The notes under the pieces were generated by a model. The model had not been told where the DNA came from and ran no database searches. It worked only from the letters and a program-made list of their open reading frames with translations. The position numbers and the translations under genes were made by a program. This document shows, piece after piece, positions 23,156 through 47,013 of a stretch of 57,167 nt of DNA (position 1 is the stretch's first letter; every line of letters starts with the position of its first letter). This DNA is from Elusimicrobia bacterium GWB2_63_22 (GTDB lineage: Bacteria; Elusimicrobiota; Elusimicrobia; Elusimicrobiales; UBA9959), in assembly GCA_001799735.1 (NCBI GenBank), contig MGUA01000005.1, forward strand, positions 126,920 to 184,086, written 5' to 3'.

Positions 23156-23207
23156 TGAATAATGGTTCAGTATTCATTTTGTATCATAAATCCAAAAACG
23201 CTGTCAA
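23156..23207 (-). promoter_or_regulatory. Promoter and TetR-type operator of the fabG operon
   Basis: Minus strand: -35 TTGACA (23207-23202), 18-nt spacer, extended -10 TGA-TACAAA (23186-23178). Directly downstream at 23176-23156 is a 21-bp dyad with perfect 6-bp arms TGAATA/TATTCA around a 9-nt centre, placed where a bound repressor would cover the transcription start. The arms resemble FadR/PsrA-type TetR operators with TGAAT..ATTCA arms. The leader to ATG 23049 is about 120 nt. Confidence 0.65.
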
Positions 23208-23332
23208 CACTTATTTTAAATCCCCGCGCATCCCCCCCCCGGCCCGCTTCCTTATATATAGGGCCCGGCGGCAGGGCTCAAGATTTTAATGGAAACGGTT
23301 TTGTTTTTTTGCTATCCTATACAAATCACCGC

Positions 23333-23411
23333 GGGGTCGTGGTGTAGCCTGGTTTAACACGTCGCCCTGTCAAGGCGAAGACCGCGGGTTCGAATCCCGT
23401 CGACCCCGCCA
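23333..23411 (+). tRNA. tRNA-Asp (anticodon GUC), CCA encoded
   Basis: Acceptor GGGGTCG/CGACCCC, discriminator G, encoded CCA at 23409-23411; anticodon stem TCGCC/GGCGA with anticodon GTC at 23369-23371; T arm CGGG-TTCGAAT-CCCG. Its 3' end is the junction with the accessory island, and the recombinase reading frame on the opposite strand runs into it. Confidence 0.97.
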
Positions 23412-24893
23412 AATTTTCTTCTCGGAAAATTTGGCACAATTTAAATCCGCTAGTCCGGCTAGCGCCCGCAGTTTCTCCGCCGGAAAATTAAGTTTTAATT
23501 TTATTTTCTTCCCGCCTATAATTAAGTTCGAACCGATATTTTTCAATATTTGCAGGTTCTCCTCGGGTTTTCCGGAAACTGCGGCCTCTCCGGCGTGAAC
23601 TGCGAGTTTGTAAAACCCTATCAGTGGTTCGAACCGTTTACTCCCCTCCCGCTCAAAAGCTGCGAGTTTCATTTCACATTCTTTTTTTTCTTCTAAGCAT
23701 GAACGCTTCTTTTGGGCGTATTCATCCTGCGTTATCATCCCGCTAAGGATCATGTCCAAAAGAGCGTTCATGCTCTTCGTAAGGAAATCTATTTTATCTC
23801 GCAGATTTTGGGCGGTGCTTTCCCCGGCCTGGGCCGCCTTTATTCCTTCCGCTTTTATGTTATCAAGAGCTTCGGCGGCCAGGGCCGGGGGTAAGGAAAC
23901 TCCTTTTAGGATTTCGCGTACCTGGCGATCTATCTCCTCCTCGCGGACAAACAGCTCCGCACAGGGCTGCTTGCGCTTGGTGCAATGCAGGTACTTATGC
24001 CCCTTCTGCGTCTCGGTAGTTATGAAGCAACCGCAAGAGGCGCAACGGAAAGCGCCCCGGTAAACATAGGGCAATAGAGTTTTAGTTTTGGGCTTACTTT
24101 TGTTTTTAAGCATCTCCTGGCACTTGTCAAAGAGCGCCTTGGAGATTATGGGCTTATGCTTGGCCTCGTAAACCTCCCCGTAATAGCGCATAACCCCGTA
24201 GTAGATAGGGTTCCGGAGCATATAGTGGCAGTTGGACACGGACAGGGGCTTATGAAGTTTACGCCCGCGAAGCCCGGACCTGTTTACCATGTCGCGGATT
24301 TCAAGGATGGCGTAATTCCCAGTAGCGTAAAGCTCAAAGGCTTTTTTAATGACCGGGGCGCGCTCTTTATCAACGTGTATCGTGTGGGTGGCCAGATTGT
24401 TTATGTAGCCCATCGGCGCCCATGAGGGCCAGATACCATTGCGAAGCTTTTGGCGAATACCGCGCTTTACATTTTCCGAGAGGTTGTCCACGTAATACTT
24501 GGACTGGCCGAAAGCGATAGACAGCATGAACTTGCCCTGCGGCGTGGGGTCAAACCAGAAGGTAGGGAACTTGAGCTCTAAAAGCTTGCCAGTGTCCACC
24601 AAGTAGACCAAGCGGCCCCCATCAATTGAATTCCTAGCGAGCCGGTCAGGGTGCCAGGCAACTATCCCCTGGGCCACGCCCTGTTCAAGGCCAGCGACCA
24701 TCTCGTTGAACATGTCGCGGCCCGGCTCCTTGGCGGTTTTGCTTTCTATGAACTCGCGGACGATGGCGAGACCGTTCTTTTTGGCGTAGTCACGGAGTTC
24801 AGCGAGCTGCGCCTCAATGGACAAGATCTGCCGGTCCGGCTCGTCCGTGGACTTGCGTGCATAAAGGAAATACCGCATATTAGACTTCTCCAT
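23370..24893 (-). CDS. Large serine recombinase, C-terminus fused into the tRNA-Asp antisense
   Basis: 507 residues. Order: catalytic resolvase domain (YARKSTDEPDRQ with S15 as the nucleophile, AWHPDRLARNS), recombinase domain (ENVKRGIRQKLRNG to RNPIYYGVMRYYG), zinc ribbon (FRCASCGCFITTE with later HCTKRKQPCAE), then a coiled coil at about 365-430. Such enzymes integrate, excise or invert DNA at specific sites. GGGGAGG lies 6-7 nt before the ATG. The last 11 residues (GRRDSNPRSSP) are translated antisense tRNA-Asp and replace the native tail. A plus-strand copy of the native 3' end survives at 25044-25229. The gene's 3' end is part of a 112-bp inverted repeat. Confidence 0.9.
   Translation of the reverse strand: MEKSNMRYFLYARKSTDEPDRQILSIEAQLAELRDYAKKNGLAIVREFIESKTAKEPGRDMFNEMVAGLEQGVAQGIVAWHPDRLARNSIDGGRLVYLVDTGKLLELKFPTFWFDPTPQGKFMLSIAFGQSKYYVDNLSENVKRGIRQKLRNGIWPSWAPMGYINNLATHTIHVDKERAPVIKKAFELYATGNYAILEIRDMVNRSGLRGRKLHKPLSVSNCHYMLRNPIYYGVMRYYGEVYEAKHKPIISKALFDKCQEMLKNKSKPKTKTLLPYVYRGAFRCASCGCFITTETQKGHKYLHCTKRKQPCAELFVREEEIDRQVREILKGVSLPPALAAEALDNIKAEGIKAAQAGESTAQNLRDKIDFLTKSMNALLDMILSGMITQDEYAQKKRSCLEEKKECEMKLAAFEREGSKRFEPLIGFYKLAVHAGEAAVSGKPEENLQILKNIGSNLIIGGKKIKLKLNFPAEKLRALAGLADLNCAKFSEKKIWRGRRDSNPRSSP
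23405..23516 (-). repeat. 112-bp inverted repeat, left copy (recombinase 3' end)
   Basis: This block encodes the recombinase segment from GGKKIKLKLNF to EKKIWR and abuts the tRNA-Asp 3' end. It matches 25062-25173 in inverted orientation at 111 of 112 bases; the single difference changes one Ala codon to Glu. Confidence 0.95.
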
Positions 24894-25043
24894 ACCTTGC
24901 CTCCCCTTGCTCTTAAGGACGGTTTTGCCCAGCAGGGCTGAACCGGCCTTAAGTGCTATTCTTCAACTCTGCGCCGCGGGTAAGGCCGGCCAGGCGCACC
25001 AGCGCTGGGCCGGCCGCACCGGCGGCCATAAGGACAATAATTC

Positions 25044-25229
25044 GGTTCGCATTTAATCATTGGCGGGAAGAAAATAAAATTAAAACTTAATTTTCCGGAG
25101 GAGAAACTGCGGGCGCTAGCCGGACTAGCGGATTTAAATTGTGCCAAATTTTCCGAGAAGAAAATTTGGCGGGCCTTTCAGGATGAAGTTCGCGACTACT
25201 TTGCGCAACATCCCGAGGTAACTTTATAA
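25044..25229 (+). pseudogene. Orphan 3' end of a serine recombinase with the native C-terminal tail
   Basis: In frame 25044-25229 the plus strand reads GSHLIIGGKKIKLKLNF and so on to KKIWRAFQDEVRDY and FAQHPEVTL, then TAA. Up to KKIWR it equals the C-terminus of the minus-strand recombinase; beyond that it carries an 18-residue tail that the present gene lacks. Upstream of 25044 similarity fades through an in-frame stop, so the 5' part of this copy is gone. If the DNA between the inverted repeats flipped, the full recombinase would be joined to this tail. Confidence 0.88.
25062..25173 (+). repeat. 112-bp inverted repeat, right copy
   Basis: Inverted partner of 23405-23516 (111 of 112 identical). 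The repeats enclose about 1.55 kb with the whole recombinase except its last codons. Outside each end the sequences differ: tRNA-Asp on the left, the native tail coding sequence on the right. Confidence 0.95.
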
Positions 25230-25563
25230 ATACCGCCAGCAAGCCGTTAAAGCTGCGGTATTGGGGATCTTATCCGCGAGATGTCGTCGCAGGCGTGGCC
25301 ACGAAGCGCGGCCCCGCACTGCTCCTTGCCGCGAGAAGGCGGTTCGCAGGGCTCCGGCACTATGCGCCGTCGCACCTGCTCCAAAGGTGTTCTGCATCTT
25401 ATCAACACCCCCTATGCGCGGCCGGCCGGTACCCAACTGGGCCTTACCGGGCCGCTCCAGTCCGCCGCAGGCGTCCGTACAATGCAGAAAATTATTTCCC
25501 GCGCCCATCAATCTTGCTGTTGTAAGGCGCAGAACACATTCTTCTGCCTGTTTTTATTATAAC
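25230..25563. other. Non-coding gap inside the island
   Basis: 334 bp between the orphan recombinase tail and the fic stop codon. Open frames exist on both strands but have arginine- and proline-rich, non-protein-like composition and no start signals. The GC content is higher than in the neighbouring island genes. I see no RNA gene, terminator or repeat here. Confidence 0.4.
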
Positions 25564-26682
25564 TTATTTTGGGGGATTATTTCTGATGTATTTCTGATAA
25601 ATTTCTGATAACTTGTAGGACCTGGAGCGTCTTGAGGGATTAGCCAGCACGATCCAGCCGTCTTTAACCCATGCGGTAAGCAAATAAAGGACCATCCTGT
25701 CGGAAAGCCCCAAAGCGGCGGCCATCTCTTGCGTAGAGACCACGTCTTTCCCGGCAAAAAGGCCCAGGATCACCCGCGCCCGACGGTCCAGCTTGCGCAG
25801 CAACTCAGGCTCGGCCGGCATTCCCTCTTTGGAACACTTCAGGGCCTCATCCTTGGCGCGGCCAAAGACCTCGGCCAGCAGCACAACAAAATACTCTATC
25901 CACCCGGTAAGATCGGAATCGGCGCGGCCCGCGTAGCAGTTATGGTGCTTATGCACCGCGAGCGAGTTGTAATACGCCTCTATATCGCGGGCATGGTGCT
26001 CTTCCATAGAGAAGAACCCGCGCATACCGTAGCCGTCCCTGTGCAGCAGGAAAGTAGCCAGCAGCCTGGCGGTCCTGCCGTTGCCGTCATAATATGGATG
26101 GATGGTAACGAACTGATAATGCGCTAGCGCGGCTATTATGGGCCCTGGGATGCCGTTGCGCTCGGCCTGGCGCACCCAGGCGGCCATTTCCGACATAAGC
26201 TTGTGCACGTCCTTGGCTTCCGGGGGCATATAGACAATAGCGCCGGTGGCCGAGTCATTAATAACGTTCTGCCCGGTGCGGTAGGGCGTGGCCTTTGAGC
26301 GTTTGCCCTTCTCCACAATGGCGTGGAGCCGCTTCACCAGCTCTTCGGTGAACTCGGCGCGCTTCGCCGCCCATTCCTCTACCTTCAACATGGCGTTCCA
26401 ATAGTTGCGCACCTCGCTGGTGTCGCGCTCGCGGCCATGGAAAGAAGTCTTCTTGCGCTCTATTACGTCCTGCGCTTCCTTCAGGGTAAGCCGGTTGCCC
26501 TCAATGCGGGTAGAGAAATGTGTGGACCTCACCATTGCCGCGCGCCGCAATTCCGCCTCAACAGCAGGCGGCAAAGCCGTGCGCTCCACAATTGTCTTTG
26601 CGGACTCAATGTCCATCAACGCCCTGGCGATTTTATTGCTTAAACCGTAGCGCGGCGCCCAATGCCGTGTTTTATTTTTCAT
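25564..26682 (-). CDS. Fic family protein, class II (self-inhibited) AMP transferase-like
   Basis: 372 residues. Fic proteins transfer AMP or similar groups to target side chains. The active motif HPYYDGNGRTARL (about residues 192-204) has the catalytic His and the GNGR loop; position 3 is Tyr rather than Phe. An N-terminal inhibitory motif STRIEGN (57-63) fits the class II (S/T)xxxE(G/N) rule, so activity is probably autoinhibited by E61. The C-terminal part (about 300-372) looks like a winged helix (STQEMAAALGLSDRMVLYLL). It ends the minus-strand island series. Stand-alone Fic proteins with HTH tails occur in toxin-like and regulatory settings; the target is unknown. Confidence 0.88.
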   Translation of the reverse strand: MKNKTRHWAPRYGLSNKIARALMDIESAKTIVERTALPPAVEAELRRAAMVRSTHFSTRIEGNRLTLKEAQDVIERKKTSFHGRERDTSEVRNYWNAMLKVEEWAAKRAEFTEELVKRLHAIVEKGKRSKATPYRTGQNVINDSATGAIVYMPPEAKDVHKLMSEMAAWVRQAERNGIPGPIIAALAHYQFVTIHPYYDGNGRTARLLATFLLHRDGYGMRGFFSMEEHHARDIEAYYNSLAVHKHHNCYAGRADSDLTGWIEYFVVLLAEVFGRAKDEALKCSKEGMPAEPELLRKLDRRARVILGLFAGKDVVSTQEMAAALGLSDRMVLYLLTAWVKDGWIVLANPSRRSRSYKLSEIYQKYIRNNPPK

Positions 26683-26863
26683 GTGTCACAATCTTTGTCT
26701 TAGCTCGTCACAGTAAAGGCTCATAGAACTTTGCCGGGGCCGTCGGCCCGCGGCTCACCCGGCCTCTCTGCAATGCACGGCGATTAGCCTTAAGCCACAA
26801 TGTCTTACAAATCAAATACTAATTTTTACTAATAGATTTACTACTAACTTGCTAATAACTTTG

Positions 26864-28525
26864 CTATTTCTTTATCCAATTAGGAGCTTTGTCGCTCCCG
26901 GAGTTCCTGATCTTTCCGGCCCTTCTCAATTCAGAGATCAGATTGTTGATTTTAGACTTCTTCTGCTTGTCGCTCATCCAATCCGGGAGCTTTTTCCAAA
27001 GCAGTTCGTCAATATCTTTGCGGGACAGATTTTTATGCTCATCAAGCGCTTTTAATATCAAGTCCAGGTAATACATTTTGTCAAAGGCCCTGTTTTTGGA
27101 ATACCCGGCTTTCTGCCCTGTAATCTGGGACATCCCTTTTGAAAGGAAGTAGTTAGGTCTTCTACCCTCTATTAATTTACGGGCTTTAAGATGTTTCTCT
27201 TCAGCTTTTGAAAGCGGACGCTTTTTCTGGACTTTATCGAGAAGAATAATCTCCTCAAGGGATAGTTCGGCATTCCCCGCAAGCAGTCGGGCATAATCAA
27301 TATCAAGGACTTTGCCCGTTATGGTGACTTTCACCTTATTTCCGGAAAGGTCGTAGTCGGGCATGGGAAAAAACCGCTGCCGCTGGAAGTTGAACATCTT
27401 CCTTATGCCGCCGCCGGCGGTATCAACCATTTTCAGGTTGAACATGGCGGTTGCCAGAAACCGGTTGCGATAATGTTCTTCGGGAGCGTTATCCTGCACA
27501 ACTTTTCCTACATCTCCCGGAATGAAGCCGCCGAGATTGGTGAAAACGAGCTGGTCTTCCAGTTCCACAACATTGATGCGTCCGCTGAGGGAATAATCCT
27601 GATGGGCGATACAGTTATTTATCGCCTCTCTTATTGTAAACGGCTCGTACTGGTCTATTTCCTCCGGGAACAAAGTGCCGTCTTTAAGGTAGCGGTACTT
27701 GGAGTTCCTGATCTTGGCGTAGACTTTATCCACGGCCAGCAGCAGCGGGCAGCCGACTATCATGTAGTCTTTGTCGTTCCCTTTTGAATCCTTAAGAAGC
27801 CAGCGGATCTTGGCCTCGGCGGGGCCTATAAAATGCTCCGCCTCTTCTTTGCCAAGCAGAATAACGGCGGCGCGCGTTATCTTCCCCTTGATGGTAAGTT
27901 TTGCCTTGTTAAGGAATGTTAAGGTATCCCAGGAATCCACTTCCGGGGCTTTATCCGGGAATTTGCTCTTGAAATTTGCGCGCGCCACGGAAATCGCCCG
28001 CTCATCCAGGTCGTCCACCGTAGCGCCGTCAACAATTGCCGCGCTCCAGTCCGTTAAGCCTGCCTGGGCCCTGATACGCTCTATCTCCTCAAGATTCAGC
28101 GGAACCAGCTCTTCCCCATCCCGGCCGTAATAATGCCCATCAAAGGCAATCGGCAGCCCTTTGGGCGCGGCGGGGATCTGAAAAAGAACAACCCTTTTTC
28201 CACCGGCAGTATTCAGTTCATGGATTTCGATGAACGTAATCCTGTTGATGGTTTTAGCCGCAATCTCGCCCTTCAGGCTGTCCAGGTCTTTGCGGGAACT
28301 GCGGAAAGAACTTCCCACTACAGCGTGATTTTTATTTTCCACTCCGAAAACAAGCCAGGCGCACGATCTGCCCTTGAGATTAGCTTCATTGCTGAGGGCT
28401 GAAAAGTATTTACCGATCTTATCGAAGTGATAGGTGTTTTTCGCTTCTTTAAATTCCACCACCTCGGTTTCTGCGGGGAGGCGGCACAACTTATCCAGGA
28501 TTGCCGCAAGTTCTTTATCGTTCAT
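26864..28525 (-). CDS. AlbA_2/Schlafen-like domain protein with GHKL ATPase-like domain
   Basis: 553 residues. The N-terminus has the AlbA_2 (Schlafen-type) signature EVVEFKEAKNTYHFDKIGKY, ALSNEA and a later YYGRDGEELVPL. Residues 300-400 hold a divergent ATPase region (FTIREAINNCIAHQDYSLSG, VFTNLGGFIPGDV, DTAGGGIRKMF) of the type annotated as ATP-dependent DNA helicase RecG-related or HATPase_c_4. The C-terminus (about 440-553) is basic and may contain winged-helix segments. Such proteins are common next to restriction systems and mobile elements, often as regulators. Only 23 nt separate its start from the upstream secreted-protein gene. Its role is inferred only from context. Confidence 0.8.
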   Translation of the reverse strand: MNDKELAAILDKLCRLPAETEVVEFKEAKNTYHFDKIGKYFSALSNEANLKGRSCAWLVFGVENKNHAVVGSSFRSSRKDLDSLKGEIAAKTINRITFIEIHELNTAGGKRVVLFQIPAAPKGLPIAFDGHYYGRDGEELVPLNLEEIERIRAQAGLTDWSAAIVDGATVDDLDERAISVARANFKSKFPDKAPEVDSWDTLTFLNKAKLTIKGKITRAAVILLGKEEAEHFIGPAEAKIRWLLKDSKGNDKDYMIVGCPLLLAVDKVYAKIRNSKYRYLKDGTLFPEEIDQYEPFTIREAINNCIAHQDYSLSGRINVVELEDQLVFTNLGGFIPGDVGKVVQDNAPEEHYRNRFLATAMFNLKMVDTAGGGIRKMFNFQRQRFFPMPDYDLSGNKVKVTITGKVLDIDYARLLAGNAELSLEEIILLDKVQKKRPLSKAEEKHLKARKLIEGRRPNYFLSKGMSQITGQKAGYSKNRAFDKMYYLDLILKALDEHKNLSRKDIDELLWKKLPDWMSDKQKKSKINNLISELRRAGKIRNSGSDKAPNWIKK

Positions 28526-28548
28526 ATCTTTTCCCTGCTATCTATCTT

Positions 28549-29157: not shown

Positions 29158-29159
29158 GA

Positions 29160-29561: not shown

Positions 29562-29571
29562 AAAGCCTCCG

Positions 29572-29907: not shown

Positions 29908-31608
29908 TTACCCCATTAAAGTTTTGTCTAAAAGCTCTGTCAGTAAGGGATTAACTATTTTAAAATCCTGGTCATTCAATACCCTGTGTTTCGTTGCCAG
30001 TTCTATTGTCTTGCCGGGATATTTCAGCCCATGTGTTTCAACGGTGCCCAATATCAACTGGCAATTCTTAGGCCTCTTTTCCAGAACAAACTGCATGATC
30101 TTTTTTATGTTTTTATAGTCCGGGTCTTGCTGAAGCGGGGAGTCAACAATTAACGGGCACGGAAGATAGTCTGGCGAGAATTCTGCCATGACATGCAAGA
30201 TACTATAGTACTGCGCCAGCAGCGCTCTCGGGAGATCACTGCCTGCGGTATTGAGTTTACTGGTCGGTTTTTCACACTGAGTTTGAGAAACAGTACTCAC
30301 ATCCAGCGCAGTTAGAAAATCTCTCAGTTTCTGACTATACGAGTTATTAATTCTCTGAATTCGACTTTTTTCTTGTATCTGAAGTCGCTCCGCCTTTAAT
30401 CCATCCAATTCCAACTGAAGCTTGCCAATTATGCTCTCAATCCGCTCAACGTCAGCGCGTAGCAGGCGGCGGACCTCTTTTTTGCTTTCCGAACCGATAA
30501 TATCTTTTAAAGTTAAATCACCCTGCCGTGCCTCTAGAAGCGTCTGCAAATCACTCAGTTCCTTCTGGTTTTGATAACAACTCTCGTTCAAATCGGAAAT
30601 TTTATGTTCGATCCCCTTCTGTTGCTCGCATAAGTCCAAAACGAGCTTGTGGCACATTTCCACATCCTCAACCAACTTAAACCGTTTAGTTATGGCATTC
30701 TGGAATTCAGTGCCACATGTTGGACATTCAATATTCCCTTTGGAGGTCTGGGCCAAAACATATTTATGATCTTTTTCCAATTCAACTCTGGCTGTTTCAG
30801 CGATTTCAGCCTGACGCTGCAACATAAACCGTTGTTTTTCAAGTTCAGACAAAGCGGTCTTATATTTCTCCTCTTTTTCCCGAAGACTCTGGCAAGCCGA
30901 AACCAATGACTGTGTCTCATGCTTAAAAGCATTCAAATCCATATCAAATATCGCGCCATTGGTCTTAAATCTTTTTTGTGCCTCAACCACAATATTCCGC
31001 TCTACTTTTACAGGCTCGATGTCCCTGCCAATTTCGTCTATACGCTGTTTAATGTCGAAATACCTCTTGGGAAGAATGCCGATGTGATAATTTATCATCA
31101 TCGTCTTATAATCGGAGAACTGCTGGAGCCCTTCAAATGACTCCCATAGCTTATGCCAGCCCGAATCTTGGTCAACAAAGAACGGCAAAAAGAAATATGA
31201 CGGTGGCAGCAGGCGGGATTTACCACGCTTATCCTGCATTTGGATCTTAAACCCAAACATATCCGCAAAAATCGCACCGACACCGCCTTCACGCCCGACT
31301 CCCTCGTATTTCCCCAAAAGCCTTTTCTTTTTATCAAACAATGCGAACATTGTTTTATGGCGCAGTAAAATATAAGTTGCTTTCTCAAGCTCAAATTCGA
31401 CAGCGGATATCTCGGATGTTTCCTCCCAATTCGAAGGAGTACGAATCGGGGATGCCCCGAAAGTGTGATATAAGGACTTTAATAGAGAAGATTTGCCGGT
31501 ATCATTGTCCCCCGTTATCACGTTTACTTCGGGGTCGAACTCTATTTTCCGCGCTCGTTGAGCTTTCTTTGACAGAAGATACAATGTTTTGAAGGTTAAT
31601 TTTTTCAT
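29908..31608 (-). CDS. SMC/Rad50-like ABC ATPase of a putative Lamassu/ABC-3C type defence system
   Basis: 566 residues. Walker A GDNDTGKSS at residues 33-41, a central coiled coil (about 190-420) broken by a hook-like IECPTCGTEF, a signature-like segment AGSDLPRALLAQYY and Walker B PLIVDSPLQQDPD near the end, where Gln residues follow the Asp instead of the usual Glu. This head-coil-hook-coil-head order is that of small SMC-like ATPases such as LmuB of Lamassu and the ATPases of ABC three-component systems. It sits 38 nt downstream of a DUF4297 nuclease gene, the usual partner in Lamassu-Cap4. It probably senses foreign DNA or its ends and licenses the nuclease. Exact subtype not established. 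Confidence 0.75.
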   Translation of the reverse strand: MKKLTFKTLYLLSKKAQRARKIEFDPEVNVITGDNDTGKSSLLKSLYHTFGASPIRTPSNWEETSEISAVEFELEKATYILLRHKTMFALFDKKKRLLGKYEGVGREGGVGAIFADMFGFKIQMQDKRGKSRLLPPSYFFLPFFVDQDSGWHKLWESFEGLQQFSDYKTMMINYHIGILPKRYFDIKQRIDEIGRDIEPVKVERNIVVEAQKRFKTNGAIFDMDLNAFKHETQSLVSACQSLREKEEKYKTALSELEKQRFMLQRQAEIAETARVELEKDHKYVLAQTSKGNIECPTCGTEFQNAITKRFKLVEDVEMCHKLVLDLCEQQKGIEHKISDLNESCYQNQKELSDLQTLLEARQGDLTLKDIIGSESKKEVRRLLRADVERIESIIGKLQLELDGLKAERLQIQEKSRIQRINNSYSQKLRDFLTALDVSTVSQTQCEKPTSKLNTAGSDLPRALLAQYYSILHVMAEFSPDYLPCPLIVDSPLQQDPDYKNIKKIMQFVLEKRPKNCQLILGTVETHGLKYPGKTIELATKHRVLNDQDFKIVNPLLTELLDKTLMG

Positions 31609-31646
31609 AAGCCCTCTTTCTCAGATTCCGAACAAGCCGTTTATAT

Positions 31647-32744
31647 TTAAGGGATTCTTCTTTCATAAACTATCCATAATATCGCAGATTTTAGGTAGTC
31701 ATCCGAGTGCGCATGGGACCAATTAGGATTCTGTGCCCTGAACATCTGTAATCCTTCCGCTGCTATCTGTGATAAAGTTTTATTCGCCACATCAGGGATA
31801 TTGCCGACTACATCAGTAAGCTTAACAACCAGGTCTTGCACAAGAGTATTTGTTGAGTCTAGCTGATCAACAGAAAAGCGGTTCCACCCGTCCCTAAAAG
31901 CGAAGATCTGCATTGGCAAAAGCTTTTCATGGCCCAAAAGATTCAAGATCACGCCCCAGTTCCGCTCAGTTTTAACGGTTTTTTGAATATTGGCCAATGT
32001 CTCTTGGATTTCAGCCCGTGTTAAGCATTTAGATTCTAGAAATTCCGCCACCGTCTTTATCAGCATGGGATTAACGCGCCCTTTGGCCTCAATTTCTTTT
32101 TTAATTGCTTTATACCACGATGAGACATGCGTTGCGCATTCCGGTCCGAGCTTCTCATTAAAGAATTTCAGAATCTCTCCCAGTACCATCTCGTCCTGTT
32201 TGCCAAGAGGGAGATGGGAGACATGAAAAGTAATATTTTCGAGATCGCTGTCTGTGATTCCAGCGTGATTATTGCGCAGTGTATCTAATAATAGTTTCTT
32301 CTCGGAGGCATTCAGCCCTGTGGCTTGCATTTCGCCTGTGCGGGTCAAGAAAGAAAACTGGGCATTAGAAACGAACATCAATTGAGCGGAACAATTCGGG
32401 AAGGATTTTGTATTTTGATAGAGCTTCTCTATAAAAGACAGTTTCTTCTCGCCTTTGGATTTAGGGCGAGTGGTCAGATTCGCCATTGTCCAATTACCAG
32501 AATCTTTGGTTTTAACTTGGCAGAAGTAGACCTCAGTAGGTTTCGTGGGAGAATTCAGACGCAAAACATCCTCATGGAACTCAAAGGCAAAAGCATAATC
32601 TTTTCCTGCGGCGTGAAGCGCTAATAGCTGGGAAAGGGCCCAGCAATTCTGGTAATCAAAACGGTCTTGTGCCAAGCTACCACCCTTTTCTCGGGGCTTA
32701 GTAGACGCAAGTGCTTTCAGAATATTATTCGGTTCTTCAGCCAT
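31647..32744 (-). CDS. DUF4297 (Cap4-type) nuclease effector paired with the ABC ATPase
   Basis: 365 residues. The N-terminal third matches DUF4297/Cap4 nucleases of the PD-(D/E)xK class: GGSLAQDRFDYQNCWAL (21-37), FAFEFHEDVLRL with E55, E58 and D59, then YFCQVKTK with Q76-V77-K78. The C-terminal half is helical and ends SDDYLKSAILWIVYERRIP, which might contact the ATPase. Cap4 nucleases cut double-stranded DNA when activated in CBASS or Lamassu. No cyclic nucleotide synthase is present, so activation by the neighbouring ATPase is more likely. It follows hsdR by 34 nt in the same direction. A separate LmuC/middle-component gene is not evident. Confidence 0.72.
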   Translation of the reverse strand: MAEEPNNILKALASTKPREKGGSLAQDRFDYQNCWALSQLLALHAAGKDYAFAFEFHEDVLRLNSPTKPTEVYFCQVKTKDSGNWTMANLTTRPKSKGEKKLSFIEKLYQNTKSFPNCSAQLMFVSNAQFSFLTRTGEMQATGLNASEKKLLLDTLRNNHAGITDSDLENITFHVSHLPLGKQDEMVLGEILKFFNEKLGPECATHVSSWYKAIKKEIEAKGRVNPMLIKTVAEFLESKCLTRAEIQETLANIQKTVKTERNWGVILNLLGHEKLLPMQIFAFRDGWNRFSVDQLDSTNTLVQDLVVKLTDVVGNIPDVANKTLSQIAAEGLQMFRAQNPNWSHAHSDDYLKSAILWIVYERRIP

Positions 32745-32778: not shown

Positions 32779-35133
32779 CTACCGCACGTATAAATATTTC
32801 TGGAACTCAATAAACGTGTTGCGTATCTCCTGCACACTGCCCAATTGGGTTGTGGCGTCGTCTATGGCGTGATATTTCAGGGTCAAGAGGTCGGGCAGTT
32901 TCTCCTGGTCCAACTCCTCTACGCCGGTTTCTATGTATTTAGCCAGGACAAAATCCAGGAACTCCTGCTGGCGGGAGCCTAGGCCGGTATGTATCTGGGA
33001 TATTGCCTTTGCTACCCTGGCTTCGCGGGTAATTGGCTTAATGGAAAAAGCTATGTATTCCAACACGTCAAAAAGGTCGCTCTTTTCCGCGTTTATGAGT
33101 TTTTGCAGCGTAGCGAGGTCATCCCGTGTGTAGCCGGCGTCGGCAAGTTTATCCAGCATAGCTTTGCGGGTTATGGGGTTGGACCAGACTTTGCGCAGCT
33201 CATCTTCGCTTTTAAAGAAAGTGGGCAGCGCGCCGAACAGGTCACGGATGAACTCTTCCGCGGAGATTGGTTTGCCGTCAGCGCTGTAGAATGTGGTGGA
33301 GATCATGTGCTGGATCTCGCGCTCTTTTCCGTCGCGCAGCTTGATCTTTACTTTTTTAATGCATTCGCAGGGGCGTTTGCCGCACTTCGGACAAGGCGGC
33401 TTTTCGCATTCGCAAGGCTTTTGGCCGCATACAGGGCAGGGCTGGCCGGGCTTATGCTCGCATACGCAGGGCTTCTGCCCGCATTTCTCACAAATTTCAG
33501 CTACAGGCTCGCCATCCCATTCGGGGTCTGAAAAGTGATGGTAGGCATTCACAAAATCATAAATGGTGAAGTACTCTTTGCCGTCGAATAGGCGCGTGCC
33601 GCGGCCTATGATCTGCTTAAACTCTATCATCGAGTTAATAGGCCGCATCAGAACGATGTTGCGGATATTGCGGGCGTCCACGCCAGTGGATAATTTCTGG
33701 GAGGTAGTCAGGATGGTGGGGATACTCTTTTCGTTGTCCTGGAATTCCCGCAAGTACTGGTCTCCCAGGTCTCCGTCATCAGCGGTAACGCGGACGCAGT
33801 AGTTGGGCTCCCGGCTTGTCTTATTCTGGTTTATCAAATCCCGCACCAGGGCGGCGTGGGCCTGCGTGGCGCAGAAAACAAGGGTTTTCTCTTTCTGATT
33901 TATTTCAGAGAGGAAGATCTGCACGCGCTTGGCTTCGCGCTCTTTTATTTCAATGATCCTGTTGAATTCAGGCTCGGCATAAATTCTGCCTGTTTCCACC
34001 TCGCCCTCAATTACATGGTCGTCCGAGGTAAAACTATAATCATCCAGCGTGGTTTTTACCCGCTTTAAGCGGAATGGTGTAAGATAACCGTCGTTGATGC
34101 CTTCTTTCAGGGAATAAATATAGACCGGCTCGCCGAAATAATCGTAAGTGTCCCGGTTGTCTTCGCGCCGGGGCGTGGCGGTAAGGCCAAGCTGAACAGC
34201 CGGGGCGAAATATTCCATAATACTGCGCCAGTTGCTTTCATCGTTGGCACCGCCCCGGTGGCACTCGTCTATTACGATGAAGTCAAAATAGTCCCTAGGG
34301 TAGTCGCCGAAATGGGGCGTATTGTCCGGCCCGCTCATGAATGTCTGAAAAATAGTAAAGAAGATGCTGCCGTTCGTGGGGACTTTACCTTTCTTACGTA
34401 TTTCATCCGGGCTTATGCGCACCAATGCGTCTTCCGGGAATGAGGTAAAGGCATTAAAGGCCTGATTTGCAAGAATATTCCGATCAGCAAGGAAAAGTAT
34501 GCGGGGCCGGCGCGTGCCGTCTTTTTTAAGATTCCAGCGGGTCTGGAAAAGCTTCCAAGCTATCTGAAAAGCTATAAAGGTTTTGCCGGTGCCGGTGGCG
34601 AGGGTCAGCAAAATACGCTGTTTGCCGTCGGCTATGGCCGCCATGGCGTTATTGATGGCGATTTCCTGATAATAATACACTTGCTTAGTGCCGCCGATGT
34701 CGTCAAACGGTGTAGCATTGAACAGGTCCCGCCATTGGTTTGTGGCGGCAAATTTTTTATTCCAGAGTTCTTCGGGTGTGGGAAAAGCGGCAATGGGGCC
34801 TTCTTTGCCGCTCTGCATATCTATCTGATATATCGTTTTTCCATCGCAGGCGTAGGTATTATCCAGGCGCAACTTCTCCGCGTAGTTCTTTGCCTGGGCG
34901 ACACCTTCTGCCACGCCCTTAATAGTGTTTTTGGCCTCGACTACGGCTAGTTTGCAGCCTTTATAAGACAGCACGTAATCCGCGATAAGCGGCTTAGCGC
35001 GTTTGCCGCCCACCAGGAGTTTCCCCGCGGTAATGTGGTATTCGCGGTGCACCTTTGTGCCTTCCACCGCGCCCCAGCCGCTTGCTTTCAGCTTGGGATC
35101 AATAAGTTCCGCCCTGGTTTCGGCTTCATTCAT
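32779..35133 (-). CDS. hsdR: Type I restriction enzyme, R subunit (HsdR)
   Basis: 784 residues. N-terminal nuclease region (NEAETRAELIDPKL, YVLSYKGCKLAVVEAKNT with the E-x-K core), Walker A LTLATGTGKT (about 176-185), DEAD-type box IDECHRGG (about 286-293), and motif VI QIIGRGTRLFDG. Residues 546-590 contain three tandem CxxCGxxPCxC units (12 Cys), an unusual zinc-binding insert. The C-terminus resembles EcoEI-type R subunits. HsdR translocates and cuts unmethylated DNA with HsdM and HsdS. The start overlaps hsdS by 4 nt. The chain is shorter than classic 1000-residue HsdR proteins but fits the EcoEI-like group. Confidence 0.92.
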   Translation of the reverse strand: MNEAETRAELIDPKLKASGWGAVEGTKVHREYHITAGKLLVGGKRAKPLIADYVLSYKGCKLAVVEAKNTIKGVAEGVAQAKNYAEKLRLDNTYACDGKTIYQIDMQSGKEGPIAAFPTPEELWNKKFAATNQWRDLFNATPFDDIGGTKQVYYYQEIAINNAMAAIADGKQRILLTLATGTGKTFIAFQIAWKLFQTRWNLKKDGTRRPRILFLADRNILANQAFNAFTSFPEDALVRISPDEIRKKGKVPTNGSIFFTIFQTFMSGPDNTPHFGDYPRDYFDFIVIDECHRGGANDESNWRSIMEYFAPAVQLGLTATPRREDNRDTYDYFGEPVYIYSLKEGINDGYLTPFRLKRVKTTLDDYSFTSDDHVIEGEVETGRIYAEPEFNRIIEIKEREAKRVQIFLSEINQKEKTLVFCATQAHAALVRDLINQNKTSREPNYCVRVTADDGDLGDQYLREFQDNEKSIPTILTTSQKLSTGVDARNIRNIVLMRPINSMIEFKQIIGRGTRLFDGKEYFTIYDFVNAYHHFSDPEWDGEPVAEICEKCGQKPCVCEHKPGQPCPVCGQKPCECEKPPCPKCGKRPCECIKKVKIKLRDGKEREIQHMISTTFYSADGKPISAEEFIRDLFGALPTFFKSEDELRKVWSNPITRKAMLDKLADAGYTRDDLATLQKLINAEKSDLFDVLEYIAFSIKPITREARVAKAISQIHTGLGSRQQEFLDFVLAKYIETGVEELDQEKLPDLLTLKYHAIDDATTQLGSVQEIRNTFIEFQKYLYVR

Positions 35134-36266
35134 GATTTAGCCCCTGCTAGCTCACCGCTGAAGGCTTTCTGCAATATGGACTTCTTCAACTCTTCAAGGT
35201 CAGCAAGTTTTCTTGTATAAACCGATTCTATTCGTTGGATTTCAGTAGCAAGCGAGTTAAGTCTTTTAACGATATTCTTTTGTACAGCTATTGGAGGAAC
35301 TGGGATTGGGTAACGCATCAATTTGGCGCCATTTATATTCGCCTGATTGACACTTGAGATTGTTACGGTTTTCCCATACTTCATAGCCATATCACTATTG
35401 AGAAAGTAGTTCAAATAATCAGCGTCCAACATTTTTTCTTTTCTGTGTATCCTGATCAGATAGCCCGCAAAGATTGCCGGCCTTTCACTTTTATAAATAG
35501 CTGTTTTTCCAACCCACTCAGGGCTATTTGTTCGATTGAACAGAACATCGTTATGTTTGAGTAGATATTTCTTTGTTTCGATCTTGTCATCAGAATAGAC
35601 CAGCTTCGTCCAATCAATTCTTCCATTTTGAATATTGCCCATCCGCAGAACTGGGACCTTGCCGTTCTTCTTTGATTTTGAAGACGTGCCATACTCAACG
35701 TCTTCACAGACTTCACCCAACAACTTCTGCTCCCACTTATTATTCAACAACTCCGATTGCAGATAACTCTTAAAAAGTTCGCGGGAGCTGGATAGATTCT
35801 TTTCGGCATTCTCTTTCGCCTTGGCAATCGCGTCAAAAGCCTCATCTAAAACAGCCACAATGCGTTTTTGCTCAGGTATGGGCAGGACTAAAATTGGCTC
35901 ATCGGCATAATCCTTGAAATATATATGAGGTATGGTGCTGCCATTCTTGTATTTCCCAAAGTCAATACTGCTAAGGAAGTAGAAAAAGTACCGGATATTT
36001 AAAATATCTTTTGGCACTAGATATTGCAGAGTTCCAATTACAGAAGAATGGGCCGGCAGCAAAGAGAGCCGCCCAATCCCAGCACCATCCTTAATTATCG
36101 CGACATACTCTTTATCCTGGTGATAGAAACTTACATTTTTAATAAAACCACCTGCCCCGAAGATCGGATAAGCCCCATCTTCATTTGCCAACTGATTCTG
36201 AGAAATATTGGAGGATGATTTATCGCAGACATCACCCAGTCTTTTCACTTCCCTCTTCACTTTCAT
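35130..36266 (-). CDS. hsdS: Type I restriction-modification specificity subunit (HsdS)
   Basis: 378 residues with two target-recognition domains, each followed by a conserved helix: first IPEQKRIVAVLDEAFDAIAK (about residues 128-147), second PPIAVQKNIVKRLNSLATEI (about 323-342). The N-terminal recognition domain begins RLGDVCDKSSSNISQNQL; the second has LGEVCEDVEYGTSSKSKKNG. HsdS sets the bipartite DNA target of the complex; the target cannot be read from the sequence. It overlaps hsdM and hsdR by 4 nt each. Local AT content is among the highest in the window, as expected for a frequently exchanged gene. Confidence 0.93.
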   Translation of the reverse strand: MKVKREVKRLGDVCDKSSSNISQNQLANEDGAYPIFGAGGFIKNVSFYHQDKEYVAIIKDGAGIGRLSLLPAHSSVIGTLQYLVPKDILNIRYFFYFLSSIDFGKYKNGSTIPHIYFKDYADEPILVLPIPEQKRIVAVLDEAFDAIAKAKENAEKNLSSSRELFKSYLQSELLNNKWEQKLLGEVCEDVEYGTSSKSKKNGKVPVLRMGNIQNGRIDWTKLVYSDDKIETKKYLLKHNDVLFNRTNSPEWVGKTAIYKSERPAIFAGYLIRIHRKEKMLDADYLNYFLNSDMAMKYGKTVTISSVNQANINGAKLMRYPIPVPPIAVQKNIVKRLNSLATEIQRIESVYTRKLADLEELKKSILQKAFSGELAGAKS

Positions 36267-37717
36267 ACCAACCCTTTGATGGTTTTTAATATCTCGGCAG
36301 TTTCTTCATCCAGCTCTTTCATTTCAGCGAGAATATCTTTCGGGTCGCGCAGGGCGGCTTCATCTTTTTTATTCGGGTTCTTTGCGGAAAGGTCGAAGGT
36401 CTCTGTATCAATATCCGCCACACTAACCGACCAGGAATTTTCTGAATTGGCCTTGGTCTTTTGCAGCTTAACGAACTCGGCCAAATCTTTTTCATTCAGT
36501 GGGTTTGTTTTCCCAAGGTTTCTGCCAGCGTTCAATTGGTAATACCAAATCTTACGAGTTGGCGAACCTTTTTCAAAAAACAGGACCACGGTTTTAACGC
36601 CAGCTCCGGTGAATGTCCCACCGGGTAGGTCCAGTACCGTATGCAGGTTGCAGCTTGCCAGCAACTGCTTGCGCAGGCTGACGGAGGCATTGTCCGTATT
36701 GGAGAGGAACGTGTTTTTTATAACCACGCCCGCCCGGCCACCGGCTTTAAGTATCTTGATGAAATGCTGTAGGAACAGGAAAGCGGTCTCGCCTGTCTTT
36801 ATAGGAAAGTTCTGCTGAACCTCGGCCCGCTCTTTACCGCCAAAGGGCGGATTGGCAAGCACAATGTTGTAGCGGTTCTTTTCCTGTATATCGGCAAGGT
36901 TCTCGGCCAAAGTATTGGTGTGCACAATATTGGGGGCTTCCACGCCGTGCAATATCATGTTCATGATGCCTATTATGTAGGCCAGGCCCTTCTTTTCCTT
37001 GCCGTAGAAAGTCTTTTTCTGGAGCGTTTCAGCGTCTTTGGTGGTCAGGGTCTTGCTGGCCTTTAAATACTCAAAAGCTTCGCACAAAAAGCCCGCCGAC
37101 CCGACTGCGCCGTCATAGATCTTGTCGCCGATAGCCGGGGCAACAACTTTCACAATGGTTTTAATAAGCGGGCGGGGCGTATAATACTCGCCGCCGTTGC
37201 GTCCGGCGTTGCCCATGTTCTGAATTTTACCCTCGTAGAGATGGGACATTTCATGTTTTTCGGTATGGGAACGGAAGCGGAGGCCATCAATCAGGTTGAT
37301 GACTTCCCGCATATTGTAGCCGCTCTGGATCTTGTTTTTGAGCTCGCTGAATATTTCGCCTATCTTGTATTCAATGGTGTCGGCGCTTTCGGCGGTAGCT
37401 TTAAACTTCTTCAGGTAGGGGAACAGTTTATGATCAACAAAATCTTTCAGGTCGTCCCCGGTCAAAGCCTTGTGATGGTCAATCTTGCCATCCTTGCCCC
37501 TAGGCGCCGCCCAGGTTTCCCATTTATAGTCGCGGCTGATAATCGCGGTGTAGTGCTTGCCCCTCAACTCCGCTGCCGCCTGTTTGTCTTTTTCAAGGTC
37601 TTCCAGGTACTTCAAGAACAGAATCCAGGAGGTCTGCTCAACATAATCCAGTTCACTGGAACAACCGGCGTCCTTGTGCAGAATATCATCGATGTTTTTA
37701 AAAGCCTGTTCAAACAT
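36263..37717 (-). CDS. hsdM: Type I restriction-modification DNA methyltransferase (HsdM)
   Basis: 484 residues. N-terminal helical HsdM_N domain (FKNIDDILHKDAGC, WILFLKYLEDLEKDK), SAM-binding motif I DGAVGSAGFL (about 201-210) and catalytic motif IV NPPFGG (about 287-292), which marks an N6-adenine methyltransferase. GEYYTPRPLIKTIV before motif I is typical. It methylates the sites that HsdR would otherwise target. It is the first gene of hsdM-hsdS-hsdR, all joined by 4-nt overlaps. AGGA lies about 7 nt before the ATG and a TATAAT is found upstream at 37803-37798. Confidence 0.95.
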   Translation of the reverse strand: MFEQAFKNIDDILHKDAGCSSELDYVEQTSWILFLKYLEDLEKDKQAAAELRGKHYTAIISRDYKWETWAAPRGKDGKIDHHKALTGDDLKDFVDHKLFPYLKKFKATAESADTIEYKIGEIFSELKNKIQSGYNMREVINLIDGLRFRSHTEKHEMSHLYEGKIQNMGNAGRNGGEYYTPRPLIKTIVKVVAPAIGDKIYDGAVGSAGFLCEAFEYLKASKTLTTKDAETLQKKTFYGKEKKGLAYIIGIMNMILHGVEAPNIVHTNTLAENLADIQEKNRYNIVLANPPFGGKERAEVQQNFPIKTGETAFLFLQHFIKILKAGGRAGVVIKNTFLSNTDNASVSLRKQLLASCNLHTVLDLPGGTFTGAGVKTVVLFFEKGSPTRKIWYYQLNAGRNLGKTNPLNEKDLAEFVKLQKTKANSENSWSVSVADIDTETFDLSAKNPNKKDEAALRDPKDILAEMKELDEETAEILKTIKGLV

Positions 37718-43767: not shown

Positions 43768-46700
43768 TCAGTCAAAAGCGTTCTCTTTCTTCTTCCATAA
43801 ATAGAACACCACCGGGTACACCAGCAGTTCCAGCGCAAAGCTCGAAGCGAGTCCCCCTATCATGGGCGCGGCTATGCGCTTCATCAGGTCCGAACCCGTG
43901 CCCAGCGACCACATTATCGGGATAAGACCCATAAAGGCCGCCGCCACCGTCATCATCTTCGGGCGTACCCGCTTCACCGCGCCATGCATGATGGCTTCTT
44001 TAAGGTCCGCGGTATCTTTCATGCGCCCGGCTTTCTTCATGTCGTCGTATGACAGGTCCAGGAACAACAGCATAAACACTCCGGTCTCGGCGTCCAGCCC
44101 CATCAGCGCTATCATACCCACCCATACCGCTATGGAAACATTGTAACCCAGGAAGTACAGCAGCCACACCGCCCCTATCAGCGAGAACGGCACGGCCATC
44201 AGCACTATAAGGGTCTTGGCCGCCGAACGGGTGTTCATATATAACAGCATGAAAATAATGAACAGCGTAAGCGGCAATACTATCTTAAGCCTTTCGCGCA
44301 CGCGCAGCATATTCTCGTACTGACCGCTCCATTCCAGCGAATAGCCGGCCGGCAGTTTAAGATTGGCGGCAATATGCTCCTTGGCGGCTTTCACGTAGGT
44401 TCCCACGTCTATGCCCTCAATGTCCACGTAGACGTAGCCCGACAACAGGCCGTTCTCGTCGCGGATCATCGCCGGGCCCTGCCGCAGCTCGATGTCGGCG
44501 ATCTGGGCCAGCGGCACGTTTACGCCGTCCATGGTGGTGACCAGCACGCGGCCCAGTTTCCTCAGATCGTCGCGGTACTCGCGGGCGTAGCGCACATTTA
44601 TCGAATAACGCTCCCGGCCCTCCACGGTGGTAGATACCGGCTCGCCGCCTATGGCGGACATCACCGCCGTCTGGGCCTCCATTACCGAAAGCCCGTAGCG
44701 GGCCAGCTGCTCCCTTTTCAGCGTGAAGTCCAGGAAGTAGCCGCCGGCGGTGCGTTCGGCGAAGGCGCTCCTGGTCCCTTTCAGGTGGGTAACCAGCTGC
44801 TCCACTTGCACGCCGACCTTCTGTATCTGCTCCAGGTCCGCGCCGTAGATCTTTATCCCTATCGGCGTGCGGATGCCGGTCGAAAGCATGTCTATCCTGG
44901 CCTTAATAGGCATGGTCCAGGCGTTCGACACGCCGGGGAAGCGCATCTTCGAATCCATATCGGTAATAAGTTCATCCCAGGTCAGTTTATCGTACCAGAC
45001 ATGGCTGAGAATGCCGCGCAGGAACTCCGGAGCCCAGGAGGAGTACCAGCGCGGCTTCGCGCGCCACTCCTCGGCGGGTTTCAGCACCACCGTGGTCTCC
45101 ATCATCGAAAAAGGCGCCGGATCCGTGGACGTTTCCGCCCGCCCCGCCTTGCCGAACACCCGCTCCACTTCGGGTATGCTTTTCAGGATCCGGTCCTGAA
45201 GCTGCAGAAGTTTCTGCGCTTCGGTCACCGAAAGCCCCGGCAGGGTGGTGGGCATGTAAAGGATGGTGCCTTCGTTGAGGGGCGGCATGAATTCCGAGCC
45301 CAGCTTGAGGTATACCGGGATGGTGGAAAGCACCAGCAGCAGCGAGAAAGCGATGGTCTTTAACGGGTGGTCCAGCACCCACTTGCAGACCGGCTCATAC
45401 ACCGCGAACAGCATTTTGCTGATGGGGTGTTTTTCTTCCGGATAATAAGTTCCGACAACCACCGTATTCACCACTTTCCCGAACCACAGCGGTTTTATGG
45501 GGAACGGGTCCATGCGGGCGAACATCATCCGCAGCGCCGGGTCCAGCGTCACGGCCAATATGGCCGCCATGAACATGGAAAGGTTCTTCGTGTAGGCCAG
45601 CGGCTTGAACAGCCGCCCCTCCTGGTCCACCAGCGTAAAGATCGGCAGGAAAGCCACCGCTATCACCAGCAGCGAGAAGAACACCGACGGCCCCACTTCC
45701 TGCAGGGCCTCCAGCCGCACGGCATGAAAATCCCCCTTTCTTCCCCCGCTCTGCCATAGTTCCAGTTTCTTATACGCGTTCTCCACCTCCACTATAGCGC
45801 CGTCCACCAGCACGCCTATGGAGATGGCTATGCCCGACAAAGACATTATATTGGACGAGATGCCCATGAAATACATGGGGATGAAAGCCAGGAACACAGA
45901 CACCGGGATGGTCACTATCGGGATAATAGCCGACGGCACATGCCACAGGAAAATAAGTATCACCAGGCTGACAATTATCATTTCTTCGGTCAGCTGGCGC
46001 TTAAGCGTTTCAATAGCCTTATATATCAGCCCGGAGCGGTCGTAGGTGGTCACCAGTTCCACGCCTTCGGGAAACGAGGGTTTTACCTGCTCCAGTTTTT
46101 CCTTCACCCTTTGTATCACCTTCAGCGCGTTTTCCTTATGGCGGATTATCACTATGCCGCCCACGGCGTCGCCCTCGCCGTCCAGGTCGGAGATACCGCG
46201 CCGTATCTCGGGGCCTGTCTCAACTCTTGCGACGCTCTTTATCAGCACCGGCGTGCCGTTGGCGTCCCGCGCCACCACTATGTTCTCAATATCTTTCACG
46301 CTCCGGGCATAGCCCTTGCCGCGTATCATGTATTCCGCGCCCGAAAACTCTATCAGCCGCCCGCCCACATCGTTGTTGCCGCCCTTCACGGCGTTCAGCA
46401 CTTTCTCAAGCGGGACATTGTAGGCCGCCATGGCGTTGGGGTCCAGATTCACCTGGTACTGCTTCTGAAAGCCTCCGATAGAAGCCACTTCCGCCACGCC
46501 CGGCACCGCCTGCAAATGGAACTTCAGGTTCCAGTCCTGGAAAGAGCGCAGCTCGGACAGGTCATGCCTGCCGCTCTTGTCCACCAGGGCGTACTGGTAC
46601 ACCCAGCCCACACTGGTGGCGTCCGGGCCTATCTCGGTTTTAACGCCTTCCGGCAGGCGGCCCTGGATCTTATTTAAGTACTCCAGCACGCGGGCCCTGG

Positions 46701-47013
46701 CCCAGTAGATATCCGTGCCGTCCTGGAAAATAACATACACATACGAAAATCCGAAATCCGAAAAACCGCGGATAGTCTTCACCTTCGGCACGCCCAAAAG
46801 CGACGTGATAACGGGGTAAGTTACCTGGTCCTCCATTATATCCGGCGAGCGGTCCCAACGGGAATAAACTATCACCTGCGTGTCGGAAAGGTCCGGGATG
46901 GCGTCCAGCGAGATGCTCCTTACGCAATAATAGGCCCCCACCATGGCCGCCATGGCGAAAATAATAACCAGGGCCTTGTTATGGGCGGAAAAAGCGATGA
47001 TTTTTTTTATCAT
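43768..47013 (-). CDS. cusA: Heavy-metal efflux RND permease, CusA type (Cu/Ag)
   Basis: 1081 residues, full length. TM1 segment and the HME signature IPDLSDTQVIVYSRWDRSPD at the N-terminus; TM4 proton relay GVLVDGAIVEVENAYKKLE. Methionines equivalent to the E. coli CusA metal path are kept: LYMPTTLPGLS, TDPAPFSMMETTVVLKP and KARIDMLSTG, which favours Cu(I)/Ag(I) over Zn/Co/Cd. CusA drives metal from periplasm or cytoplasm through CusB and CusC to the outside using protons. It lies 3 nt after the cusB-like stop. The last gene of the core cusCBA order. Confidence 0.92.
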   Translation of the reverse strand: MIKKIIAFSAHNKALVIIFAMAAMVGAYYCVRSISLDAIPDLSDTQVIVYSRWDRSPDIMEDQVTYPVITSLLGVPKVKTIRGFSDFGFSYVYVIFQDGTDIYWARARVLEYLNKIQGRLPEGVKTEIGPDATSVGWVYQYALVDKSGRHDLSELRSFQDWNLKFHLQAVPGVAEVASIGGFQKQYQVNLDPNAMAAYNVPLEKVLNAVKGGNNDVGGRLIEFSGAEYMIRGKGYARSVKDIENIVVARDANGTPVLIKSVARVETGPEIRRGISDLDGEGDAVGGIVIIRHKENALKVIQRVKEKLEQVKPSFPEGVELVTTYDRSGLIYKAIETLKRQLTEEMIIVSLVILIFLWHVPSAIIPIVTIPVSVFLAFIPMYFMGISSNIMSLSGIAISIGVLVDGAIVEVENAYKKLELWQSGGRKGDFHAVRLEALQEVGPSVFFSLLVIAVAFLPIFTLVDQEGRLFKPLAYTKNLSMFMAAILAVTLDPALRMMFARMDPFPIKPLWFGKVVNTVVVGTYYPEEKHPISKMLFAVYEPVCKWVLDHPLKTIAFSLLLVLSTIPVYLKLGSEFMPPLNEGTILYMPTTLPGLSVTEAQKLLQLQDRILKSIPEVERVFGKAGRAETSTDPAPFSMMETTVVLKPAEEWRAKPRWYSSWAPEFLRGILSHVWYDKLTWDELITDMDSKMRFPGVSNAWTMPIKARIDMLSTGIRTPIGIKIYGADLEQIQKVGVQVEQLVTHLKGTRSAFAERTAGGYFLDFTLKREQLARYGLSVMEAQTAVMSAIGGEPVSTTVEGRERYSINVRYAREYRDDLRKLGRVLVTTMDGVNVPLAQIADIELRQGPAMIRDENGLLSGYVYVDIEGIDVGTYVKAAKEHIAANLKLPAGYSLEWSGQYENMLRVRERLKIVLPLTLFIIFMLLYMNTRSAAKTLIVLMAVPFSLIGAVWLLYFLGYNVSIAVWVGMIALMGLDAETGVFMLLFLDLSYDDMKKAGRMKDTADLKEAIMHGAVKRVRPKMMTVAAAFMGLIPIMWSLGTGSDLMKRIAAPMIGGLASSFALELLVYPVVFYLWKKKENAFD

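Follow-up and report, generated by a model that had tools for sequence, protein, structure and literature searches.

Why does a recombinase gene lie between two inverted copies of its own 3' end, next to a tRNA gene? This question is raised by one locus in the window, the 57,167-nt stretch of DNA from Elusimicrobia bacterium GWB2_63_22 that was analyzed here (genome G000, 45 contigs). An earlier note on this DNA had proposed that the segment between the copies can be inverted, switching the C-terminus of the enzyme and perhaps its activity. It had also named a second element truncated in tandem, or a misassembly, as alternatives. The observation behind that note is correct but is half of a larger structure. 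The features of the locus, which we call element 1, are as follows.

23333..23411, plus strand: tRNA-Asp, the integration target, which stays intact (ARAGORN; Rfam match 23333-23408)
23405..23411, no strand assigned: attL, the left junction, formed by the tRNA terminus CCGCCA, with the crossover probably within it (by-eye comparison)
23405..23536, minus strand: arm C, the final ~40 recombinase codons and the gene's half of the attachment site
23370..24893, minus strand: large serine recombinase (integrase), 507 aa, Resolvase, Recombinase and zinc ribbon
24894..24970, minus strand: recombinase leader, with a palindromic hairpin immediately 5' of the ribosome site (by eye)
25042..25173, plus strand: arm C', inverted copy of arm C
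25162..25229, plus strand: putative inner attP joint C'/T, translated in frame as the native tail AFQDEVRDYFAQHPEVTL
25174..25507, plus strand: arm T, right boundary placed from empty sites; its partner T' is probably at G000:C22:143854-144200 (97%)

The recombinase matches the Pfam Resolvase and Recombinase models (1.7e-20 and 1.4e-15) and, at 1.2e-4, the zinc ribbon, with 22.8 bits and thus slightly below the cut-off of 25.3. This is the domain set of a large serine integrase. Among NCBIfam models the enzyme comes closest to CcrB and XisF, at scores far under their cut-offs, and YokA is among its four weak PDB sequence matches. As the earlier note said, the gene (23370-24893) ends in antisense tRNA-Asp (23333-23411), from which its last 11 residues, GRRDSNPRSSP, are read. 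A genome search of G000 gave one match only to this tRNA-Asp. The leader palindrome is present in element 1 and at loci L067, L114, L079 and L085, and is not obvious at L108 and L138; in these several Elusimicrobial members it is possibly a regulatory hairpin.

The inverted match was also confirmed. Positions 23405-23516 and 25062-25173 agree at 111 of 112 bases, and the sole mismatch is at 23479. The homology continues more weakly inwards, with 127 of 132 bases matching between 23405-23536 and 25042-25173. In a BLAST of 23201-38200 against itself, the C/C' pair had an E value of 9e-58, far beyond chance. On the plus strand, the frame at the inner copy reads FGSHLIIGG...KIWRAFQDEVRDYFAQHPEVTL up to a stop. 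This is the orphan fragment already described, which keeps the gene's C-terminus and then has a different tail, and that tail turned out to be the conserved native C-terminus of the family.

Two further recombinase genes of this kind were found in G000, each with an inverted copy of its own 3' end upstream. Element 2 (G000:C27:115.5-117.4 kb) is at a tRNA-Ser, is 90% identical and has the same layout. Its C' is followed by a 340-bp arm T, and an inverted copy of that arm (T', 99%) is found 30 kb off, adjoining CCGCCA and the chromosome. Element 3 (C27:148 kb, 64% identical) is at another tRNA-Ser and has its own distinct inverted copy, within which the contig ends. The integrated layout is tRNA / C-integrase-C' / T-cargo-T' / chromosome. 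By eye, the CCGCCA segment is common to attL, the inner attP and attR of elements 1 and 2. More partial copies of T are present in G000 at C1:80477-80758, C23:49-201, C41:518-813 and C43:55-118, some of them near contig ends, and are likely other elements or remnants.

The window covers the left portion of an integrative element in tRNA-Asp whose full length is probably more than 34 kb. On contig C5, whose end is the end of the window, no T' of element 1 was found, and a T copy at 97% is on C22:143854-144200. By eye, the DNA beyond this copy has a CCAGA...TCTGG hairpin and a terminator, like the sequence after tRNA-Asp in the insertion-free genomes G147 and G135. The empty tRNA-Asp sites of these two genomes correspond to the joined flanks of element 1, by homology judged by eye and not by identity. 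With the C22 flank as query, no empty site was found in 31 other genomes of the genus; there were only two short matches, one of which (G142) adjoins a T'-like end. Element 1 most likely spans from 23409 to beyond the window end, at least 34 kb, with a join between contigs C5 and C22 that we infer. The following genes of the window were assigned to its cargo.

25564..26682, minus strand: SoFic-like Fic protein
26864..28525, minus strand: AlbA_2/Schlafen-domain protein
29908..32744, minus strand: Lamassu-like pair, LmuB (29908-31608) and LmuA (31647-32744)
32779..37717, minus strand: EcoAI-like type I restriction-modification system (subunits R, S and M)
43768..47013, minus strand: CusA/CzcA heavy-metal efflux pump, probable cargo, inside the element if the right end is on C22

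Past the type I restriction genes, window positions 37880-38000 resemble the region beside T' of element 2 (GGGCCAGGCCGGGTGCG). This stretch is perhaps a remnant of a nested or older element.

The distribution of the layout was then determined. A search of the phylum found matches in 71 of 340 genomes, and a scan of bacterial genomes contributed the best 80 of 265 related stretches. In the resulting survey of 123 loci, including two duplicates (L204 = L121, L202 = L178), the inverted copy was present at 71 loci, absent at 20 and not assessable at 32. It was found at 71 of the 74 assessable loci of at least 37% identity (70 of 73 distinct loci, without L204) and at none of the 17 assessable loci below 37%. 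The three exceptions are L085, which is chimeric and lies between two tRNAs; L193, where the alignment begins at query residue 96, such that the upstream stretch may fall within the gene; and L122, which has the inner T joint and T/T' (80%) with a diverged C'. Since nearly all assessable relatives, from several bacterial phyla, carry the inverted repeat, it looks like a built-in design and not an accident.

Both C/C' and T/T' were found in 20 distinct complete elements, with T/T' 91-100% identical and 1-30 kb of cargo. One of these is in an isolate genome, Schleiferia thermophila DSM 21410, at ~208-215 kb of its contig. No T' was found at 14 of 34 loci with C': the contig end comes first at nine, the end of the analyzed stretch at four, and L118 is reversed. 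In a 60-row tree (quick search), 30 rows with the trait, 26 outgroup rows without it and four unscored rows require one change, on a branch with SH-aLRT 100. For this tree, L122 was scored as having the trait, L085 and L193 were left unscored, L202 was dropped, distant genes that were full-length and had 2.5 kb or more of upstream sequence were scored as without, and close relatives were thinned to every fourth. In a 122-row tree without these choices, apart from the distant-gene rule, the rows lacking the repeat need three changes.

A tRNA on the opposite strand is at or overlaps the 3' end at 19 of 27 distinct distant loci, so the antisense-tRNA tail predates the inverted copy and is more widespread. 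For example, L165-L184 (such as L169, L171 and L182), at 25-35% identity, end at or inside tRNA-His, -Leu, -Glu or -Gln on the opposite strand and have no inverted copy. The circular form that the earlier note suggested looking for did not turn up among plasmids, which gave neither free forms nor relatives at E 1e-40. Viral contigs gave one match (L164, 48% identity) that starts at the first base of its contig; no inverted repeat was found on this contig, where the upstream arm would precede the first base. Phages gave two distant records at 29-31%.

The left junction and the inner joint have C in common as far as the CCA terminus of the tRNA, beyond which they diverge. We surveyed 58 loci for the motif TTCGAA, 16 of which had a T that was too short or masked. 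Among the 42 usable loci, the motif was on both sides at 20, and 20 of the remaining 22 had no TTCGAA near the joint in T; at some of these the aligned repeat ends before the joint. In all 18 tRNA-attached loci with the motif on both sides, its distance from the core is 5 bp greater on the T side than on the tRNA side. A first count had given 14 of 20, to which the reversed L118 and a second TTCGAA at L138-L140 added four; L103 and L121, with T on both sides, are outside the count. The zinc-ribbon motif is reported to be shifted by 5 bp between attP and attB of serine integrases (PMC3783163). The same spacing difference here supports C'/T as an attP, read at the 18 loci; the window's own T has GTTCGCG at this place. 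C'/T has the properties of a complete attP site. It is what the T'/C joint of a free circle would be, and on this reading the orphan fragment is a full copy of attP that stays behind within the element.

When the integrase frame is read through C into T, it gives a conserved tail and a stop, with sequences such as CFLDEVRTFFEQNPE, AFQDEVRDYFAQHPEVTL or CLFEKIRTDFAQNR, in records labeled Elusimicrobiota, Patescibacteria-type lineages and Bacteroidota. A regular expression matched the native tail at 35 of the 58 loci; at the others T was missing, short, masked or off-pattern, and L096 is a 15-bp chance match. Across 31 distinct rows, variability in the tail was 0.47 at third codon positions, 0.39 at first and 0.33 at second, a modest sign of protein-level constraint. 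Integrated forms have RGRDSNPR-type peptides in place of the native tail, at tRNA-Ser and others, and integration would swap the native C-terminus for an antisense tRNA peptide. The gene at L118 carries the native tail; a structure model of its product has a predicted helix there with pLDDT <40 (mean 67, pTM 0.36) and is uninformative on this part.

The arms seem to exchange sequence. Across seven related elements, C and C' are 95.5-100% identical within a locus, while C is 72-100% identical between loci, the 100% pair being element 1 and its closest relative, L114. An exception is L065, with arms 95.5% alike and a C that is 95.5% identical to that of element 1 and 97.3% to that of L081. That C and C' are usually closer within a locus than between loci supports, as an apparent exchange, the recombination or conversion proposed earlier. 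Less similar arms occur at L113 (85%), L118 (83%) and L121 (86%). At 14 of 39 loci with arms at least 95% identical, the arm is 133-134 bp long, which is what a single old duplication would leave if its copies were kept alike.

These data, namely the layout and its recurrence, the single branch in the tree, the similarity of the arms, the motif spacing where it is present and the conserved tail, make it probable that this is a large serine integrase element with a doubled, inverted attachment site. Complete relatives have inverted pairs around the integrase and the cargo, so a free circle would hold two opposed attP joints. As reconstructed from integrated forms, these facing joints, T'/C and C'/T, would split the circle in two, with the integrase in one half and the cargo in the other. 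One joint would be recombined by the integrase with a tRNA gene at its CCA end, the other being left inside, and the enzyme probably reads the T-loop sequence TTCGAA, which in the tRNA is 5 bp closer to the core than it is in T. In the circle, exchange between the joints, by integrase attP x attP or by homologous recombination, would keep the arms alike and could flip one half against the other. Usually, integration would take place via the joint at the 3' end of the gene, replacing the native tail with the antisense-tRNA peptide; via the opposite joint, the native tail would be kept. It was further considered, as an unlikely but conceivable proposal, that this is a 2-micron-like integrating two-loop element that flips at its inverted attP pair while free, and in which the joint used sets a native (active) or tRNA-encoded (locked) C-terminus.

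Published reactivities bear on where the exchange would take place. For the A118 serine integrase, neither attL nor attR is reported to have reacted with attP or attB, and attP x attP ran below 5% of attP x attB (PMC3556126). For the LI integrase, intramolecular attP x attP is reported to be high (PMC3783163), and for most characterized serine integrases this reaction is described as weak or absent (PMC3783163, PMC3556126), which is a point against our model. The reactivities of A118 and LI lead us to place the exchange in the free circle and not in the chromosome.

The orientation of the integrated forms is also evidence against our model, as it is strongly one-sided, unlike equal use of both joints. 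Among 95 loci of the clade (94 distinct, since L204 repeats L121), the tRNA is only at the 3' end of the gene at 76, only on the 5' side at two (L106 and L118), at both ends at one (L085) and at neither at 16 (15 distinct). The arms of L118 differ; therefore, this is very likely a true reversed integrant, and misassembly is unlikely. At L106, the contig ends inside the gene and misassembly is possible. At L085 (G350:C1:37162-39119), the recombinase is between a tRNA-Ser upstream and a tRNA-Glu downstream, with unlike arms, and this locus is apparently a recombinant of two elements that joins two chromosomal sites. One guess at the cause of the bias, which is speculation, is that native-tail integrants would stay active or be driven by the tRNA promoter and hence be lost.

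Cargo orientation can also be compared between elements. A methyltransferase gene (64-66% identical) has opposite orientations relative to the integrase in Schleiferia (G340) and in G341/L141. The orientation is the same in G341 and L141, in elements 1 and 2, and in the integrase-proximal block of G343 and G342, while four other gene matches of G343 and G342 are opposite. Flips appear to have occurred, rarely on this timescale. Contig breaks at the inner attP were set aside as evidence of inversion, since the repeated C and T explain them.

Other explanations were weighed against the doubled attachment site. The geometry permits the switch of the earlier note, in which the integrase inverts its own gene on the chromosome between attL and the inner attP and thereby toggles between tRNA-encoded and native tails. 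Inverting the C-C' segment would indeed give the enzyme the other tail, and this alternative tail is conserved; L118 and L106 are reversed, and the L085 chimera implies one reversed form. Such a switch is nevertheless doubtful, given 76 loci in one orientation versus two in the other and an attL x attP reaction that was not seen with the A118 integrase (PMC3556126). Another possible explanation is that C-integrase-C' is an IS-like unit, bounded by terminal inverted repeats of ~130 bp, which moved beside tRNA genes, with T belonging to an unrelated element. C and C' do flank the gene as terminal repeats would, and arrays of neighboring elements were found. This is very unlikely, and was rejected, since T gives the same gene a conserved in-frame tail, is repeated inverted at the far end of 20 elements, and forms a C/T joint that obeys the attP spacing rule where the motif exists.

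The arms could alternatively act by folding, if C/C' and T/T' pair into a double-stranded attP from a single-stranded circle. Their complementarity is conserved in these elements, and CTXphi is reported to integrate its single-stranded genome via host recombinases (PMC3089051). In CTXphi, XerC acts on such a folded site. No replication or transfer gene was recognized among the scanned genes of element 1. Serine recombinases cut both DNA strands, so a folded single strand would be left with hairpin-capped ends, and we regard this mechanism as highly improbable. That the assembly is at fault, or that two truncated elements came together by chance, is hardly credible. The region is indeed hard to assemble, because at 51 of 80 loci the contig stops no more than 700 bp before the integrase start on the upstream side, versus 13 of 80 downstream. 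The layout nevertheless recurs in many independent assemblies and in an isolate genome, and it tracks the integrase phylogeny. This recurrence on a single branch of the tree refutes misassembly as a general explanation and led us to reject the truncated tandem element as well.

The doubled attachment site can be compared with known systems. To our knowledge, large serine integrase elements of the LI/A118 and YokA/SprA type carry one attP. The integrases of Listeria LI/A118 and SPbeta YokA/SprA have the same domain order, gene-end insertion and attP/attB logic with a 5-bp shift (PMC3783163). The element described here differs in its second, inverted attP, which is built in and outlasts integration. 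The yeast 2-micron plasmid is a circle split by two inverted repeats, each with a recombination site, and carries a recombinase gene. Two inverted recombination-site copies that divide the circle, together with a recombinase gene, were likewise found in 20 of our elements, as read from integrated forms. Unlike the plasmid, these elements use a serine integrase and integrate into tRNA genes; flipping or amplification would be hypothetical for them. CTXphi has attP1 and attP2 in inverted orientation on one element and thus also has two inverted attachment sites. It uses host tyrosine recombinases and a folded single strand, whereas the element here has kilobase loops and, in place of host XerC/XerD, its own adjacent serine integrase, which co-varies with the sites.

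The SCC recombinases CcrA and CcrB are reported to recombine attP x attP (PMC3783163). CcrA/B/C are among the best-scoring NCBIfam models of the integrase, alongside XisF, with scores far from their cut-offs (CcrB, 78.6 bits versus 900; CcrA, 62.8 versus 700; CcrC, 44.1 versus 900). SCC elements differ from those here in target and layout. Mycobacteriophage BPs, which has one attP, reportedly has its attachment site inside the repressor gene, and integration is said to alter the C-terminus of the repressor. The in-gene attachment site and the altered C-terminus are thus shared, with the repressor affected in BPs and the integrase here. Integration-dependent immunity has been described for BPs (PMC4557955). 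Among the literature matches listed, which are titles and the starts of abstracts, with subscription papers and preprints mostly outside them, there was no description of the doubled inverted attP layout. The integrase belongs to a known enzyme family; what appears to be undescribed is a clade in which the doubled inverted attP is a fixed trait.

The layout sets apart a clade of mobile elements whose attachment site is doubled and inverted, in genomes labeled Elusimicrobiota, Patescibacteria-type lineages, Bacteroidota and others, and the element in the window carries several defense systems. The C/C' and T/T' arms provide a simple rule for locating exact element ends. The clade also offers natural serine integrases for several tRNA genes, perhaps via the shared T-loop, that may tolerate attP x attP. 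It makes testable the idea that integration edits the integrase's own C-terminus to set its activity.

Two further observations concern insertion sites. At L103 and L121, the 3' arm of the integrase adjoins a T half that belongs to a different integrase family. It thus appears that these elements integrate at one another's attP sites and build up arrays, also at L250 and G341:C2:380-393 kb. Apparently unoccupied tRNA-Asp sites in five relatives (L210, L212, L217, L222 and L227) have a CCAAATTTT...AATTTGG palindrome that is also the start of arm C. This palindrome is either a host trailer hairpin copied by the element or a scar of past insertions.
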